In this document: positions 6,543-21,611 of the stretch, one piece after another
How the letters are laid out: each line of letters opens with the position of its first letter
How positions within the stretch are numbered: the first letter of the stretch is position 1
Source of the DNA: Halovivax limisalsi
GTDB lineage: Archaea > Halobacteriota > Halobacteria > Halobacteriales > Natrialbaceae
Direction: 5' to 3'
Length of the DNA: 64,000 nucleotides
NCBI RefSeq assembly: GCF_023093535.1
Contig: NZ_CP095757.1
Coordinates: forward strand, 310,001 to 374,000
The notes under the pieces: generated by a model
Told to the model about the DNA's origin: nothing
Seen by the model: the letters and a program-made list of their open reading frames with translations, nothing else
Database searches by the model: none
Made by a program: the position numbers and the translations under genes

Positions 6543-6850
6543 GGATCTACTCCAGAAACCGCGCGCCCACGTCACCCTCGGGAATCTCGCAGCGATCCTT
6601 CTTGCCGAAGACGCGATACCGATTGTTCGCCATGAGGTCGTAGACGGCGTCCCGGACGACGCGCGGCACGTAGCGAAACGGCGAGAGCAGGCGGTAGACG
6701 CCGCCGAGGATGGTGGCGATGCGGATGACGGCGCCGGACTTGACGTAGACCGACTCCCCCTTGACGAGGACGATCGAGTCGAACTCCTCGGTGGGCAGAC
6801 CGTGTTCGTCGAGCAACTCCTGGCCAACCTCGGACTGCAGCGAAGCGAGG
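6543..6850 (-). pseudogene. 5'-truncated, diverged copy of the DCC-family gene
   Basis: The minus strand encodes the C-terminal two thirds of the protein encoded intact at 9104-9520. Shared pieces are EEFDSIVLVKGESVYVKSGA, IRIATILGGVYRLLSP and GKKDRCEIPEGDVGARFLE at the stop (6547). Similarity breaks abruptly at about 6850, where AT-rich DNA begins, so the CxxC-containing N-terminus is missing. By eye the two copies differ at roughly one base in fifteen, so the duplication is not very recent. It lies downstream of the intact gene's 3' end, with a 2.25 kb insert between. Confidence 0.88.
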
Positions 6851-7044
6851 TTTAATTGCTCCTTGATACCCCGAGAGGGCCTATTCTAAGAACTGACAAT
6901 TCGTCCAAATAAACTAATATACCTGGTAGCGTAACTCGCATTCCCTAATAAATATCATATATTTTTACTTGATATAGATTTAATACATTTGTGGATGATC
7001 TGATGACGTCGCTTTTGACAATATCCACACGCGAATTAGCGTTG

Positions 7045-9103: not shown

Positions 9104-9520
9104 TTACTCCAGAAACCGCGCGCCGACGTCGCCCTCGGGAATCTCGCAGCGATCCTTCTTGCCGAAGACGCGATAGCGATTGGTCGCAACGAGGTCGTAG
9201 ACGGCGTCTCGGACGACGCGCGGCACGTACCGAGTGGGCGAGAGCAGGCGGTAGACCCCGCCGAGAATCGTGGCGATACGGATGACCGCGCCGGACTTGA
9301 CGTAGACCGACTCCCCCTCGACGAGGACGATCGAGTCGAACTCCTCGGTGGGCAGACCGTGTTCTTCGAGCAACTCCTGGCCCACCTCGGACTGCAGCGA
9401 GGCGAAGTAGAACCGCTCCTCGTCGTCCCGCGGCGCGATGAACTGCACGAACCCGTTACAGAGGTTGCAGACACCGTCGAAGAGGACGATCGGCGCGTCC
9501 TCGGGAACCGACGACTCCAT
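9104..9520 (-). CDS. DCC-family thiol-disulfide oxidoreductase-like protein (DUF393)
   Basis: A 138-residue protein with the family motif APIVLFDGVCNLCNGFVQFI at residues 8-27, whose DGVCxLC gives DCC proteins their name, followed by the conserved C-terminal RVFGKKDRCEIPEGDVGARF. DCC proteins are predicted thioredoxin-fold oxidoreductases. The ATG at 9520 is the only start that leaves a clean N-terminus; the longer upstream frame is arginine-rich. A diverged fragment of the same gene lies at 6543-6850. DCC genes often neighbour HTTM proteins, and an HTTM gene does lie 0.7 kb away at 10242. Confidence 0.88.
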   Translation of the reverse strand: MESSVPEDAPIVLFDGVCNLCNGFVQFIAPRDDEERFYFASLQSEVGQELLEEHGLPTEEFDSIVLVEGESVYVKSGAVIRIATILGGVYRLLSPTRYVPRVVRDAVYDLVATNRYRVFGKKDRCEIPEGDVGARFLE

Positions 9521-9664: not shown

Positions 9665-9673
9665 TTTATATAA
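9665..9673 (+). promoter_or_regulatory. TATA box of the first RNA/zinc-ribbon cassette
   Basis: TTTATATAA is centred 28 nt upstream of the first base of the P1 helix at 9697, the normal archaeal spacing from TATA box to transcription start. The second cassette has TATATATAAT at nearly the same distance. Confidence 0.7.
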
Positions 9674-9696
9674 TCGATACTAATGATTGGTTGAAC

Positions 9697-9847
9697 GGAA
9701 GCCGCGCTCCGCGTTGTCGTGGGGACAGTCACCGAGAATGTCCCGGGTGTTAGGACCACCCGAGACGTGGCTTCCAAATCCGAGGAGGATTTGTCTGCCA
9801 TGATTGCGAACACACTACCGAGACAAAAAGGTCTCGCACGCCTGCGG
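9697..9847 (+). ncRNA. Structured leader RNA, copy A
   Basis: The transcript can fold into a three-way junction. P1 pairs 9697-9706 (GGAAGCCGCG) with 9766-9775; P2 pairs GGGACA (9722-9727) with TGTCCC (9739-9744); P3 pairs GGGTG (9745-9749) with CACCC (9757-9761). P4 follows (AAATCC 9776-9781 with GGATTT 9787-9792), then P5 (GAGAC 9820-9824 with GTCTC 9831-9835) and a short P6. Copy B at 20169-20309 keeps every helix while changing bases in P1, P2 and P4. P4 holds a Shine-Dalgarno-like GAGGAGG (9782-9788) 11 nt before the leader ORF. It matches no riboswitch class I know. Confidence 0.8.
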
Positions 9848-9934
9848 TACAGTCAGCGAATGCTCCGTCCCGATTTCGGTTCGGTTTCGAAAGCGAGCCG
9901 CGAGTCCGTCGCCGGGTCGCTGGAGGGCGCCTGA
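9800..9934 (+). CDS. Leader ORF upstream of zinc-ribbon gene, copy A
   Basis: A 44-residue frame starting MIANTLPRQKGLARLR. The ATG follows GAGGAGG by 11 nt, and its stop overlaps the next ATG as TGATG, so translation of the two would be coupled. Copy B (20262-20414) encodes MLRNTPLRQKGLARLR at the same place and likewise overlaps the zinc-ribbon start (ATGA). After these 16 residues the two peptides diverge completely. The shared nine codons AGA to CGG have no synonymous change, so RNA constraint or a recent common origin may explain the conservation instead of peptide function. It could be a regulatory leader peptide. Confidence 0.5.
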   Translation: MIANTLPRQKGLARLRYSQRMLRPDFGSVSKASRESVAGSLEGA

Positions 9935-10197
9935 TGGGACGTTACGAGTACGGCGAGCCGTCGACCAGTCGCTCGTGCGAGCGCTGCGGGCAGGGACTCG
10001 GGCTGGAACACAGCGTTCGACTCGTCGCGCGTCACGAAGGGGCGCGTTCGAATCGCTATCGGGACGTCGAGCGGTACGTCTGCGGCGACTGCGTCGCCGC
10101 GCTCGGGATGCTGGAGTTCGAGGAGCGGGAATCCGACGGCAGATCCGGGACCGCGGAAGCCGGTCGCCCGCAGCCGGCCCGGTCGATCGGCGAGTGA
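9934..10197 (+). CDS. Small zinc-ribbon protein, paralogue A
   Basis: An 87-residue protein with C15xxC18 and C50xxC53, probably binding one Zn2+. The second knuckle reads RYRDVERYVCGDC and is followed by ALGMLEFEE. The protein at 20411-20647 has the same layout, with exactly 32 residues from the second to the third Cys and the shared patterns RYR-x3-RY-x-C-x-DC and L-x-EF. The two are true paralogues. The start overlaps the leader ORF stop (TGATG). The C-terminal tail (after about residue 65) is low complexity. Function unknown; small CPxCG-type haloarchaeal proteins are often regulators or adaptors. Confidence 0.82.
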   Translation: MGRYEYGEPSTSRSCERCGQGLGLEHSVRLVARHEGARSNRYRDVERYVCGDCVAALGMLEFEERESDGRSGTAEAGRPQPARSIGE

Positions 10198-10241: not shown

Positions 10242-11891
10242 CTATCGACAGGCTCGGGTCGCCACCTCGAACGTGGTCGAGTCGGACGCACCGTTCGAGC
10301 CGGGTTCGATCCCGGTCTCGGCACCGGGAAGGGCGAACTCGTGGCGCGTGTACGTGATCCGGATCGACGTCACCGTCCCGTCGAACCGCTCGTCCGCGCG
10401 GGTGCACATGTACTCCGCGTAGGCCTCGCGATAGGGCTCCGCGTCCGTCCCGAAGAGGGCGACGGTGTACTTGCGCCACCGGAAGCTCGGGATTCGATCC
10501 GAGGGGTCCGGCGGTGGCGGGGCCGACAGGGAAGTCCCGCGGAGCACGTCGACCGCCTCTCTGTCAGCGCGTTCGGCCGTGACGGTCAGGTAGCCGAAGT
10601 CGTCGCCCGGATCCGGCGCGTAGACGTCCCAGGCGTAGTCTTCGAGCGAGACGTCGGCGACCGGTTCGACGGGCTGGGCCCAGCCGAGCAGGCCGACCGA
10701 GAGGACGGCGACCACACAGAGGAGCAGGACCAGCGAGATCGTCCATCCCCGGTCGGCCAGCGTGCGAGCGGTCGGGGTGACGACCCGAGCGGCGGCCGCG
10801 TCCAGCTCGCGGTCGAATCGCGCGAGCGGCTTACCGAAGCGGCGCGCGCCCCGACGGAGACGGGCGATCGAATCGCCGACGCCGGCCGAAATCGAAGCGT
10901 CCCAGGCCTCACGACGGGTTGCGACCGAGCGTCGGAGTCGTGTCCCCATCCGTTCGGCTGCATTCCAGAATCGCGGTGGCAGAAACATGACGACGCCGGC
11001 GGCCAGCGACGGTGGGAAGAGTCCGATGGCCATCGTGAGAGCGAGGCCCGAAATCGCCCCCAGAAACGCCAGACAGTGGACTAGCCGAAGCCGGTCGGCG
11101 GTGAGGAGCAACACCGGCGCCGAGCAGAGCAGGCCGAACCAGCCGTAGGTGCCGAGTTCGAGCAGGACGGGGTACTCGACCAGGACCTCGCCGAGCAGGA
11201 TCGTCATGTGATCCTGCCGGAACGCGTAGTCGAGCGCCTCGCCCGTGGGCCAGGTGTCGCCGGCGAGTTTCTCGCCCGCGTTGCTGAAAAAGAGCGTGAC
11301 GACGTGGATCATCGCGGCCGCCGTCGCCGGCGTCGCGATTCGCGACCCACCCCGCCAACGAACCCGGTCGAGCCAGTTCGCGCCCGGTGTATCGTCGACG
11401 GGCTCGTCTTCGGGAGCGCCCCGGGCGGTCGACCGGACCGCCCAGCGATCGGCCAGCGGCAGGAAGACGGCGAGCACGAGGAGTTCCCGAAAGAGGCGAT
11501 CACCCGCGTTGAGGACGTGCGGGTTTCGCCAGTGGAGCGAGAAGACGAGGACGGCCGCGAGCGCCGCGGCGAGGCGCGGCCGGTAGCCGACGACGAGCGC
11601 GATCGCGAGGAGGCCGGTGAACGCGAACAGGAGGGCCTGCGACCACGCACCGCCGGAGAGCGCGTGCAGCGAGAGGTCGGCGGTGAGCCCCGAATTCGCG
11701 TCCAGCAGCGAGCGCGGCAAGACGCCCGCGTCCGTGTAGAACGCCCGCAGGTCGGTCGCGCGATGGCCGACGTCGAACAGCAGCGTTAGTCCCAGAAGGA
11801 CGCGAAACGCCGCGATCGCGCGGCCGTCCATCCCGAGGCGGCGCCCGAGGGCCGATCGAATACTCGCGCGGCTCGACGAGCGAGTGGCCAT
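10242..11891 (-). CDS. HTTM-domain integral membrane protein
   Basis: This 549-residue protein has many transmembrane segments. The N-terminal part (RAIAAFRVLLGLTLLFDVGH, then LRAFYTDAGVLPRSLL, and HWRNPHVLNAGDRLFRELL) matches the HTTM (horizontally transferred transmembrane) domain related to vitamin K-dependent gamma-carboxylase. The C-terminal part after about residue 440 is a soluble domain (EDYAWDVYAPDPGDDFGYLT) after a last membrane helix. The start at 11891 (MATRSSSRAS) was chosen because the upstream frame is arginine-rich nonsense. HTTM proteins commonly occur near DCC-family genes, as here. The substrate is unknown. Confidence 0.82.
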   Translation of the reverse strand: MATRSSSRASIRSALGRRLGMDGRAIAAFRVLLGLTLLFDVGHRATDLRAFYTDAGVLPRSLLDANSGLTADLSLHALSGGAWSQALLFAFTGLLAIALVVGYRPRLAAALAAVLVFSLHWRNPHVLNAGDRLFRELLVLAVFLPLADRWAVRSTARGAPEDEPVDDTPGANWLDRVRWRGGSRIATPATAAAMIHVVTLFFSNAGEKLAGDTWPTGEALDYAFRQDHMTILLGEVLVEYPVLLELGTYGWFGLLCSAPVLLLTADRLRLVHCLAFLGAISGLALTMAIGLFPPSLAAGVVMFLPPRFWNAAERMGTRLRRSVATRREAWDASISAGVGDSIARLRRGARRFGKPLARFDRELDAAAARVVTPTARTLADRGWTISLVLLLCVVAVLSVGLLGWAQPVEPVADVSLEDYAWDVYAPDPGDDFGYLTVTAERADREAVDVLRGTSLSAPPPPDPSDRIPSFRWRKYTVALFGTDAEPYREAYAEYMCTRADERFDGTVTSIRITYTRHEFALPGAETGIEPGSNGASDSTTFEVATRACR

Positions 11892-19273: not shown

Positions 19274-19669
19274 TCAGTACGATTCGACGGCGAGCCCGTC
19301 GACCCGCTCGAAGTCCCCGTCGTTCGTGACGACAGCTTCCTCGTGGACGAGCCCGGTCGCCGCCACGATCGCGTCCCCCGGTCCGAGGTCGGGTTTCGAG
19401 TCGCTCGCCAGGTGGTCACCCTCGAGCCTCCCGGCCCGGCGGGCGATGCGCTCGTCGATCGAAACGACTGGCTTGTTGGTCACGAGCGCGTCGTACGCGC
19501 GGGCGTTCTCCGCCGGCGTGACCCCTGCTCCAACCCCGACGTAGAGTTCTTCGATGACGGTGGTCGGAACGCGCGTCGGAACACCGGCCGCTTCGAGTTC
19601 TGCGCCGAGTTCGAGCGCGGCCTCGTCGTCGGCCCGGAGCGAGATGAGAAAGTCGGTATCGAGAATCAT
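19274..19669 (-). CDS. vapC: VapC-type PIN toxin
   Basis: A 131-residue PIN nuclease with active-site acids in MILDTDFLISL, VIEELYVGVG, DLGPGDAIVAATGLV and VVTNDGDFERVDGL. VapC toxins cut RNA, often tRNA or rRNA. Its start overlaps the VapB stop (ATGA). The gene is convergent to the UspA gene. Confidence 0.9.
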   Translation of the reverse strand: MILDTDFLISLRADDEAALELGAELEAAGVPTRVPTTVIEELYVGVGAGVTPAENARAYDALVTNKPVVSIDERIARRAGRLEGDHLASDSKPDLGPGDAIVAATGLVHEEAVVTNDGDFERVDGLAVESY

Positions 19670-19911
19670 TCGTCGTCCGCGTCCATCCGCTCGAGAAGTT
19701 CGCGGTGATCTGCGACGCCGGTCTCGTCGGAACGCTCGAGCAGGGCCCGGTGGTCCGCCGCCTCCTCGTCGGTGTAGCCACCCGCGAAGTCGAGCAGCGA
19801 ATACTCCGTCGTTAGTCGATCGATCGCCGCCGAAAACGTCTCGTCTTCCCGCTTTTTCGCTTTGATGCGCTCGTAGACGTCCTCCTCGAGCCGAACGGAC
19901 TTCGTGGCCAT
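19666..19911 (-). CDS. vapB: VapB-type antitoxin
   Basis: An 81-residue partner whose N-terminus (MATKSVRLEEDVYERIKAKK) is a ribbon-helix-helix DNA-binding segment of the haloarchaeal VapB group (Pfam VAPB_antitox-like). The C-terminal half contains a tandem repeat (EEAADHRALLERSDE and GVADHRELLERMDA) that would wrap the toxin. The ATG at 19911 was chosen because the longer upstream frame is unlike protein. A perfect palindrome ends three bases upstream of the start, fitting autorepression. Confidence 0.9.
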   Translation of the reverse strand: MATKSVRLEEDVYERIKAKKREDETFSAAIDRLTTEYSLLDFAGGYTDEEAADHRALLERSDETGVADHRELLERMDADDE

Positions 19912-19913
19912 GT

Positions 19914-19928
19914 GTATACGTCGTATAC
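19914..19928. promoter_or_regulatory. VapBC operator palindrome
   Basis: GTATACG-T-CGTATAC is a perfect 15-bp dyad starting 3 nt upstream of the vapB ATG. Ribbon-helix-helix antitoxins bind such dyads at their own promoter. Confidence 0.65.
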
Positions 19929-20134
19929 GCGAGTCAGTCAATCTTTCGCTGATCGGTCCGTCGTAGCTGAAACTCGAGGGAACGGGCCGAACAGGCGCAG
20001 GTTCGATGTCCAAGGTATGAGGGGTGAACGAGTGCGGTTCTGTTTGCACAATCCCGTATTTGATATCCAAACTGAGGCCCGTCTTGGGCAGCATTTGGAT
20101 GTCTATTTTTGGTGTTAGTTTTTCGTCTCACCAG

Positions 20135-20144
20135 TATATATAAT
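20135..20144 (+). promoter_or_regulatory. TATA box of the second RNA/zinc-ribbon cassette
   Basis: TATATATAAT is centred about 30 nt before the first base of the RNA P1 helix at 20169, matching the spacing in the first cassette. Confidence 0.7.
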
Positions 20145-20168
20145 ACGGTACGAGTCAATATCCCGACT

Positions 20169-20309
20169 GGAAGCCACGGACCCAGAGAGGGGCAGAAATG
20201 CCCCGGGTGGTAGGGCACCCGAGACGTGGCTTCCGAAAACCAAGGGCGGTTTTCAGTAGCCATGTTACGCAACACCCCACTGAGACAAAAAGGTCTCGCA
20301 CGCCTGCGG
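20169..20309 (+). ncRNA. Structured leader RNA, copy B
   Basis: The same fold as 9697-9847. P1 is GGAAGCCACG (20169-20178) with CGTGGCTTCC (20225-20234); P2 is GGGGCA (20189-20194) with TGCCCC (20199-20204); P3 is GGGTG with CACCC (20205-20209, 20216-20220); P4 is GAAAACC (20235-20241) with GGTTTTC (20248-20254); P5 is GAGAC with GTCTC (20282-20286, 20293-20297). Loops differ from copy A while helices are kept. AAGGGCGG (20242-20249), a weak Shine-Dalgarno, lies in the P4 loop 12 nt before the leader ORF ATG. The last 28 bases are identical to copy A. Confidence 0.8.
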
Positions 20310-20414
20310 CACCGGGAGCCGAATCGCTATCCAACGTCGACTTTTGGTTTCGAGGATGGAGGACCGAAGGCCACCGACTGGTCCGCGTCGTCAGACCGGA
20401 GGAACCTCGGATGA
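20262..20414 (+). CDS. Leader ORF upstream of zinc-ribbon gene, copy B
   Basis: A 50-residue frame starting MLRNTPLRQKGLARLR, equivalent to MIANTLPRQKGLARLR in copy A. The stop overlaps the zinc-ribbon start (ATGA), so coupled translation is likely if it is translated. An in-frame ATG at 20226 lies inside the P1 helix and is a less likely start. The peptide after residue 16 does not resemble copy A. Confidence 0.5.
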   Translation: MLRNTPLRQKGLARLRHREPNRYPTSTFGFEDGGPKATDWSASSDRRNLG

Positions 20415-20647
20415 AATCCGTCGAGCAATCGCACGGCGAAGTGATCGAGTCGCAGGCCGACCGGGAGTGTTATCGGTGCGATCGGAACGAAGAACCATCG
20501 CACCTGTTCGAGATCACTGTCGAGCCATCGGCCGCGATCTCTGGGCGGTATCGGGAGTCGGTTCGATACTGTTGTGTCGACTGCGCCGCCGGAATGAATC
20601 TCTCGGAGTTTTCGGAGGGGTGGAAAGGACGCGGCGAGCAGCGGTAG
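20411..20647 (+). CDS. Small zinc-ribbon protein, paralogue B
   Basis: A 78-residue protein with C20xxC23 and C55xxC58, plus RYRESVRYCCVDC and a LSEFSEGW tail. Spacing between the Cys pairs is the same 32 residues as in the protein at 9934-10197. Both follow a structured RNA and an overlapping leader ORF. It has an extra Cys at 54. Function unknown; a zinc-dependent adaptor or regulator is plausible, and the leader RNA may set its expression. Confidence 0.82.
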   Translation: MKSVEQSHGEVIESQADRECYRCDRNEEPSHLFEITVEPSAAISGRYRESVRYCCVDCAAGMNLSEFSEGWKGRGEQR

Positions 20648-20781: not shown

Positions 20782-21285
20782 TCACACTTCGAGAAAGACG
20801 CCGAACTCACGCGCGGGCGACCGAAAACCGGCCTCGTCGATCCATCGTTTGCGGAACGTGTCTGCCTCGTCCGCAGAAATTTGTCCGTCTTCGACGATCC
20901 GCGCGAGGAGCCCGATCGATCCGGTAACTGTCACGCCGCGCTGTTTCGCGGTGGCACGCGCGTCGCCATCGTCGGTGACGAGCGTTCCGTCGACCGCTTC
21001 CACCACGGCCAGCGCCTGCACCTCACCGGGATCCAGCGTTTTCAGCAGCTCCGTCTCCGATCGTTCCGCAGCCGACGACGGTGTGGAGACTGGAATATCC
21101 GCCTCGAGTACCGTTACCGCTCGCTCGATGTACGGATGGGTTTCGACGCCGCGCTCCAGTTCGTCACGGACGGCATCCACGGTTGCGAGCCGGGGGAGGG
21201 TGAGGAGCAGTCCGACGCGGTCCACGTGTGCAAAGTTGGACAACACAGAGGTGTCGAGAACTGTCGCGCGGTGGGGCGGTTCCAT
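20782..21285 (-). CDS. PIN-like toxin (DUF3368 type)
   Basis: A 167-residue PIN-fold protein with ATVLDTSVLSNFAHVDRVGL at the N-terminus, TLDPGEVQALAVVEA in the centre and GTLVTDDGDARATAKQRGV as the distal acidic motif. This layout fits DUF3368 toxins, which pair with UPF0175 antitoxins. The start overlaps the antitoxin stop by one base (TGATG). A C-terminal helical extension (SADEADTFRKRWIDEAGF) is present. It is probably a nuclease acting on RNA. Confidence 0.83.
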   Translation of the reverse strand: MEPPHRATVLDTSVLSNFAHVDRVGLLLTLPRLATVDAVRDELERGVETHPYIERAVTVLEADIPVSTPSSAAERSETELLKTLDPGEVQALAVVEAVDGTLVTDDGDARATAKQRGVTVTGSIGLLARIVEDGQISADEADTFRKRWIDEAGFRSPAREFGVFLEV

Positions 21286-21611
21286 CAGTCCAGATTGCGA
21301 GCGGCGTCGATCTCCTCTCGCGCCGCGGCCACGTCCTCGGGGCCGACGCGAAGCTCGACGCCCTCCTCTCGCAACACGTCGCGCATCTCGAACCGGTTCA
21401 CGCCGGCGAGGCGGGCGGCGGTCCCTAAGGTGATCTCCCCGTCGCTGTACAGCGACACCGCGGCGGCGATCCGGGCCTCCTGATTCGCCTCGAAGTACTC
21501 GCGGAGGACGTGCCGAATCGCGTCGCTCTTGTTCTCGAAGATTCCCGCTCGGACGGCACCCTCCATGAGGTCGGTCAGGTCCTCGGGGATGGTAGCGGTG
21601 GTTCGGGACAT
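21285..21611 (-). CDS. UPF0175-family antitoxin
   Basis: A 108-residue protein. Residues about 1-40 (RTTATIPEDLTDLMEGAVRA, then NKSDAIRHVLREYFE) form a ribbon-helix-helix-like unit, and the middle (GEITLGTAARLAGVNRFEMR) is the UPF0175 helix-turn-helix. A 15-bp palindrome with the TATA box lies 22 nt upstream, fitting autoregulation together with the toxin encoded next. Confidence 0.85.
   Translation of the reverse strand: MSRTTATIPEDLTDLMEGAVRAGIFENKSDAIRHVLREYFEANQEARIAAAVSLYSDGEITLGTAARLAGVNRFEMRDVLREEGVELRVGPEDVAAAREEIDAARNLD

Follow-up and report, generated by a model that had tools for sequence, protein, structure and literature searches.

What is the role of the structured sequence that lies, at two places in the window, between a TATA box and two overlapping small ORFs? 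(The window is the whole stretch of DNA analysed, 64,000 nt, i.e. positions 310001-374000 of a 3.89 Mb single-contig genome.) A preliminary description had seen in it a structured RNA that precedes coupled ORFs and controls their translation. Comparison with homologous sequences supports this proposal as the most likely one, on the basis of the conserved order of the elements and of a helix that can be exchanged at the start codon: the element most likely represents a new class of cis-regulatory RNA controlling translation.

Organization of the two copies in the window

The features of the two copies are as follows (window coordinates).

9665..9673, + strand: TATA box of copy 1 (sequence)
9697-9802, + strand: whole RNA of copy 1 (covariance-model match)
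9697..9775, + strand: three-way junction of copy 1 (covariation; model match of 83.8 bits)
9697-9706/9766-9775, extended by 9707-9709/9762-9764, + strand: P1 of copy 1 (covariation)
9722-9727/9739-9744, + strand: P2 of copy 1 (covariation)
9745-9749/9757-9761, + strand: P3 of copy 1 (covariation)
9776..9792, + strand: P4 hairpin of copy 1, 9776-9781/9787-9792 (the pairs covary; the loop sequence is not conserved)
9766..9802, + strand: putative alternative helix of copy 1, CGUGGC 9766-9771 with GCCAUG 9797-9802 (start codon), exclusive with P1 (complementarity in f1, co-variation outside f1, energies)
9800..9934, + strand: leader ORF of copy 1, 44 aa, ATG at 9800, starting MIANTLPRQKGLARLRY (K10 in 100/102 homologues)
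9819..9836, + strand: P5 hairpin of copy 1, inside the leader codons, CGAGAC 9819-9824/GTCTCG 9831-9836 (two-sided changes)
9922..9926, + strand: GGAGG Shine-Dalgarno (SD) of the zinc-ribbon ORF, inside the leader ORF (sequence; see below for the other copies)
9932-9936, + strand: TGATG overlap of the leader and zinc-ribbon ORFs of copy 1 (sequence)
9934..10197, + strand: zinc-ribbon ORF of copy 1, 87 aa, CxRC-31-CxxC (alignment A7)
20135..20143, + strand: TATA box of copy 2 (sequence)
20169..20264, + strand: RNA of copy 2, with P1 at 20169-20178/20225-20234, then P2-P4 and GCCATG (model match of 77.9 bits)
20262..20414, + strand: leader ORF of copy 2, 50 aa, with P5
20411..20647, + strand: zinc-ribbon ORF of copy 2, 78 aa, ATGA overlap

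The order TATA box, three-way junction, P4, GCCATG, leader ORF and overlapping small ORF is the same in both copies. All the main elements that the preliminary description had given for copy 1 (TATA box, P1 to P4, leader ORF, TGATG overlap and zinc-ribbon gene) were found there, and the second copy, which it had placed at 20135-20647 in the same order, was recovered as well. Some details had to be corrected: the zinc-ribbon gene, described as CxxC-32-CxxC, does possess two CxxC motifs, 31 and not 32 residues apart, and the GAGGAGG assigned to the P4 loop is a non-conserved sequence that overlaps the P4 3' stem. Copy 1 is adjoined by an oxidoreductase gene, of which a partial copy is present in the window (6548-6863 and 9105-9420, 92% identical), and copy 2 sits between two gene pairs (19274-20094 and 20782-21611) that look PIN-toxin/antitoxin-like by eye in the ORF list.

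A TATA-like motif, mostly at about -31, was found in 65 of 95 copies versus 2% of the control windows; transcripts probably start with the structured RNA, near P1. At the non-Natrialbaceae loci (L277-L306 and L321-L349), locus-specific 7-mer repeats surround the TATA box, within the 85 nt upstream of the RNA; direct and inverted repeats were observed at 49% and 57% of the loci versus 13% and 16% after shuffling. They are absent from the copies of f1, the family group of the window copies, taken as Natrialbaceae. These repeats look like operators, different at each locus.

Distribution and turnover of the RNA

A DNA search gave 35 matching places in the genome. A first covariance model (R1), built from 27 copies of this genome, retained 29 RNAs, dispersed and on both strands, so that the two copies of the preliminary description, both real, were an underestimate. 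The same model was positive in 62 of 292 haloarchaeal genomes. The covariance-model search over haloarchaeal genomes that the preliminary description had suggested was extended with a broader model (R2, from 66 sequences, among them relatives from other families), which matched 203 of 392 genomes and 68 of 86 genera. In a phylum-wide set, all 14 positive genomes belong to the window's own order, and no match was found in the approximately 164 genomes outside that order. Multiple copies were also seen in another family, with 16, 13 and 9 in genomes G183, G362 and G339, respectively. Tandem cassettes occur, i.e. three copies within 3.4 kb in genome G212 (C1:1570917-1574253) and two within 0.6 kb at locus L059 of another genome.

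The copies turn over between congeners. Copy 1 of the window is absent at the same site in four of them, in which tyrS and the upstream oxidoreductase gene are immediate neighbours, and only a minority of the copies of the genome have a syntenic counterpart in two congeners (as judged on incomplete flanks). The RNA at locus L039, from a congener (G071), is identical to that at L081 of Halovivax asiaticus.

As to viruses, a 37-kb proviral contig from IMG/VR contains two strong matches. Those in BJ1 and Humcor1 are weak (E 0.005-0.16), yet they end at annotated or in-frame start codons: at the starts of BJ1_gp21 (9660) and HrrHm1_220 (34108) and, in BJ1, at ATG 3598, which shares its frame with the valine start annotated for BJ1_gp07. 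The model found no match in HF2, phiCh1, HCTV-1, HCTV-5, HGTV-1, HHTV-1, HHTV-2, ChaoS9, HSTV-1, SNJ1, SH1 and a Deep Lake Halorubrum tailed virus. Positions 10292-10359 of HF2 (L350), annotated as a predicted hammerhead ribozyme, are not matched by the model of this RNA. A virus origin of the Natrialbaceae form was considered and rejected: the f1 motif gave no IMG/VR contig, and its sole phage match, in a Caulobacter phage, looks like chance.

Structure and covariation

Two-sided changes affect 11 pairs among the 27 copies from the genome itself, 16 of 30 pairs among 95 distinct model-aligned sequences, and 29 of 30 when distant relatives are included (64 distinct sequences). With alignments fitted to the covariance model, and thus biased towards the structure, this last set gave 407 compensatory cells versus 133 ± 10.5 after shuffling and 97 or fewer when slid; 90.9% of its cells were paired versus at most 50% when slid. 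That P3 looks invariant in f1 comes in part from the choice of loci, about half of the f1 loci having been chosen by an exact P3/P1 motif; in the distant set, found by the model, P3 covaries (GGGUG/CACCC, GCGUG/CACGC, CGGUG/CACCG). The RNA, a three-way junction plus a hairpin, is real and not a product of chance, since the TATA-like motif is far more frequent than in the control windows and covariation greatly exceeds that of the shuffled and slid controls. A conserved and covarying 5' UTR structure, as expected of a riboswitch, is present, its 5' end being deduced from the TATA box. Degenerate copies exist (L023, L030), and in one copy (L036, G000:3512571-3512731) P2 is interrupted by an insertion that contains two additional hairpins, P1, P3 and the start region being retained.

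A helix exchangeable with P1 at the start codon

The P1 3' strand shows complementarity to a segment of 6-9 nt whose end is the start codon. In f1 this strand, CGUGGCUUCC, is complementary to (GAA)GCCAUG, the GCC being found before the ATG in 84 of 102 copies versus 5 of 248 background genes. The commonest form of the exchange helix has only 6 bp, including one G-U. Within f1, covariation was sought and none was found, both sides being nearly invariant; there, the evidence is of complementarity. In the homologues outside f1, i.e. distant relatives outside Natrialbaceae, the P1 3' strand and the start region change together, as illustrated by GGUCUUU/AAAGACC (L302), UGGUUUC/GAAACCA (L286), GGUUCC/GGAACC (L294), CGUGUCU/AGACAUG (L284) and UGCUGUC/GACAGCA (BJ1). 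When 36 distinct P1 strands were subjected to a permutation test, the match weight with their own start was 15.4 versus 11.2 ± 0.44 with permuted ones (z = 9.6, 0/20000); the members tested were found with models ending in the start region, which pulls them to one consensus and so acts against variation, not for it.

Since the P1 3' strand is complementary to the start region and both change together, P1 and the start-sequestering helix are mutually exclusive, which, as far as sequences tell, is the anatomy of a translational switch. An alternative pairing capable of hiding or freeing an initiation signal, like the expression platform of a riboswitch, is in this way present at the sequence level. 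Comparison of the homologues establishes the exchangeable helix, together with the structure, its covariation and the conserved order of the elements. According to predicted energies, the two folds are within a few kcal/mol of each other for most copies; P1 is favoured by a median of 3.9 kcal/mol, a gap that a ligand or factor could close, and in 89% of fold predictions, so that hiding of the start may need such a factor or a kinetic route.

Leader ORF and coupling to the second ORF

The model matches end at the start of an ORF on the same strand. In the leader the first residues are conserved (for K10, see the list above) and the mean net charge over the first 24 residues is +4.6. Hairpin P5 corresponds to leader codons 7-13. 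There, R(AGA)...L(CTC) and G(GGA)...P(CCC) alternate, with 36 compensatory cells versus 17 after shuffling; such joint changes of amino acids are those expected from base pairing in P5. Outside f1, P5 is found in part of the members only. In 77 of the 95 non-duplicate f1 copies the second ORF begins at most 20 nt from the leader stop, mostly with an ATGA overlap. The preliminary description had a Shine-Dalgarno sequence held in the P4 hairpin, as in an attenuator. This was not borne out: before the leader start, SD-like sites were seen in just 15 of 102 copies, and the conserved one precedes the second ORF (71 of 82 copies). At three loci (L033, L034, L035) the leader ORF is extended into a CPxC...PCGC domain of its own, and at the first two a second Cys-rich ORF is coupled behind it.

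We consider it probable that the element is a haloarchaeal cis-regulatory RNA at the mRNA 5' end, with control over the initiation of translation at the first ORF and, through coupling, at the next one. Transcription would start near P1 and two exclusive folds would be available to the RNA. In the first, the P1 5' strand, GGAAGCCACG, would close the three-way junction and leave the AUG free; in the second, the P1 3' strand would pair with (GAA)GCCAUG, hide the AUG and enclose P4. A factor acting on the junction, whether a protein, an ion or a small molecule, would set the balance by stabilising or opening it. In the window's family, a short basic leader with P5 embedded in its codons comes first; the second ORF, usually Cys-rich and with its own SD inside the leader, would be translated by coupling. 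Exchange in the cell, its regulatory effect, its direction (P1 as the on state) and the existence of a ligand are what we infer from the comparisons. A more ambitious version, which we put forward tentatively, is that of a native archaeal riboswitch class, widespread across Halobacteria and some viruses or proviruses. In it, capture of the start codon by the P1 3' strand would depend on a ligand bound at the three-way junction, and dozens of copies per genome would have arisen as portable control cassettes for small Cys-rich proteins.

Downstream proteins and alternative explanations

Proteins with at least two CxxC/CxC motifs follow 78% of the Natrialbaceae copies and 40% of the others (strict count) versus 15% of background ORFs. 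In alignment A7 of the zinc-ribbon protein, four Cys and R17 are invariant in 15 homologues. The window zinc-ribbon proteins have no Pfam or NCBIfam family above cut-off; relatives of them behind this RNA match HVO_2142 or HVO_2901 only far below it, and an AlphaFold model (pLDDT 72) bears a weak resemblance to ribosomal proteins (eS26/eS21-like chains; best E 0.04). No ribosomal-protein family was found among the downstream ORFs scanned. In other families the downstream ORFs encode SWIM proteins, HF1/HF2-type CxxC proteins or unknowns, some without Cys pairs; the controlled genes differ completely between families and no biochemical pathway points to a ligand. At four loci (L041, L083, L092, L127) the second ORF looks HalOD1-like (for L127, E 1.7e-4, below cut-off), several having a C-terminal CPxC...CGC tail. 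In other haloarchaea a second ORF appeared RAMP-like by eye; nothing useful came from Pfam, PADLOC or PDB.

Could one of the encoded proteins be the regulator? The basic leader peptide, or the Cys-rich protein, might bind its own mRNA and repress it, in the manner of ribosomal-protein leaders. The charge of the leader and its conserved first residues are consistent with this, and so is the fact that the following proteins are often putative zinc-binding ones, a class often binding nucleic acid. However, the same RNA precedes unrelated proteins (SWIM, CxxC, unknowns), and therefore no single self-binding product explains all members; we regard such autoregulation as unlikely. Quite improbable is a constitutive 5' structure, which would stabilise the mRNA or keep the start codon open without switching: the thermodynamic preference for P1 in most copies and transcripts that probably begin with the structured RNA would suit it, but a stabiliser needs no co-variation of the start region with the P1 3' strand. 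A riboswitch for zinc or another metal, the ligand guessed at in the preliminary description, serving zinc-binding proteins, would be the translational switch proposed above with its ligand named. It would fit the enrichment in Cys-rich proteins downstream, in both Natrialbaceae and the others, but we find it very doubtful: among the copies inspected, no gene for metal transport or metal homeostasis was recognised immediately downstream, some of the ORFs that follow are without Cys pairs, and haloarchaeal viruses such as HF2 commonly have CxxC proteins in any case. Finally, a mobile-element end or a trans-acting small RNA, with small genes downstream by chance, would agree with the dispersed copies, their limited synteny and the absence of copy 1 in congeners but is highly improbable, because no terminal repeats, transposase or target duplication were noticed in the stretches read, which cover the flanks only in part, because homology begins at the promoter and is joined to the ORF start at near-constant spacing, and because P5 and the exchange helix span the start codon.

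Comparison with known systems

The preferred reading, a switch of translation at the start codon, concerns an RNA that is apparently undescribed in the sources searched, as the preliminary description had held: none of 4227 Rfam models matched, which rules out a known Rfam RNA, and no haloarchaeal RNA of such description was found in the open literature, subscription papers being outside the search. Established natural archaeal cis-regulatory RNAs are very few; here is a family that shows strong covariation, spans a whole archaeal class, reaches about 29 copies in a genome and has an exchange helix, tested by evolution, on the start codon. It gives a testable model of start-codon control for haloarchaea, where translation is not strictly dependent on the Shine-Dalgarno sequence (PMC8241225), a handle on unannotated families of small Cys-rich proteins, and an incentive to search for its ligand.

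The window proteins are small and have two Cys-pair motifs, like the haloarchaeal zinc-finger proteins of the HVO_2142 and HVO_2901 families and Halobacterium Brz (PMC2253796), from which they differ in matching no Pfam or NCBIfam family above cut-off. The archaeal ribosomal-protein leaders (S15, eL15, L4; PMC7247131) are likewise covarying structured RNAs in the 5' region of mRNAs; in contrast to them, the present RNA has no recognised ribosomal-protein gene downstream, and occurs in dozens of copies per genome and in a proviral contig. The fluoride riboswitch of Thermococcus kodakarensis, which a 2021 paper (PMC8241225) calls the sole natural riboswitch determined experimentally in archaea, is also a naturally occurring archaeal 5' RNA with a presumed action on translation, but no Rfam riboswitch model matches the element described here and the genes are different. 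With bacterial translational riboswitches it shares the 5' position, a junction closed by P1 and a P1 strand that can alternatively pair with initiation signals. It differs from them in being archaeal, in that the element it would sequester is the start codon rather than the SD and, in the window's family, in having an extra hairpin, P5, inside the first codons.
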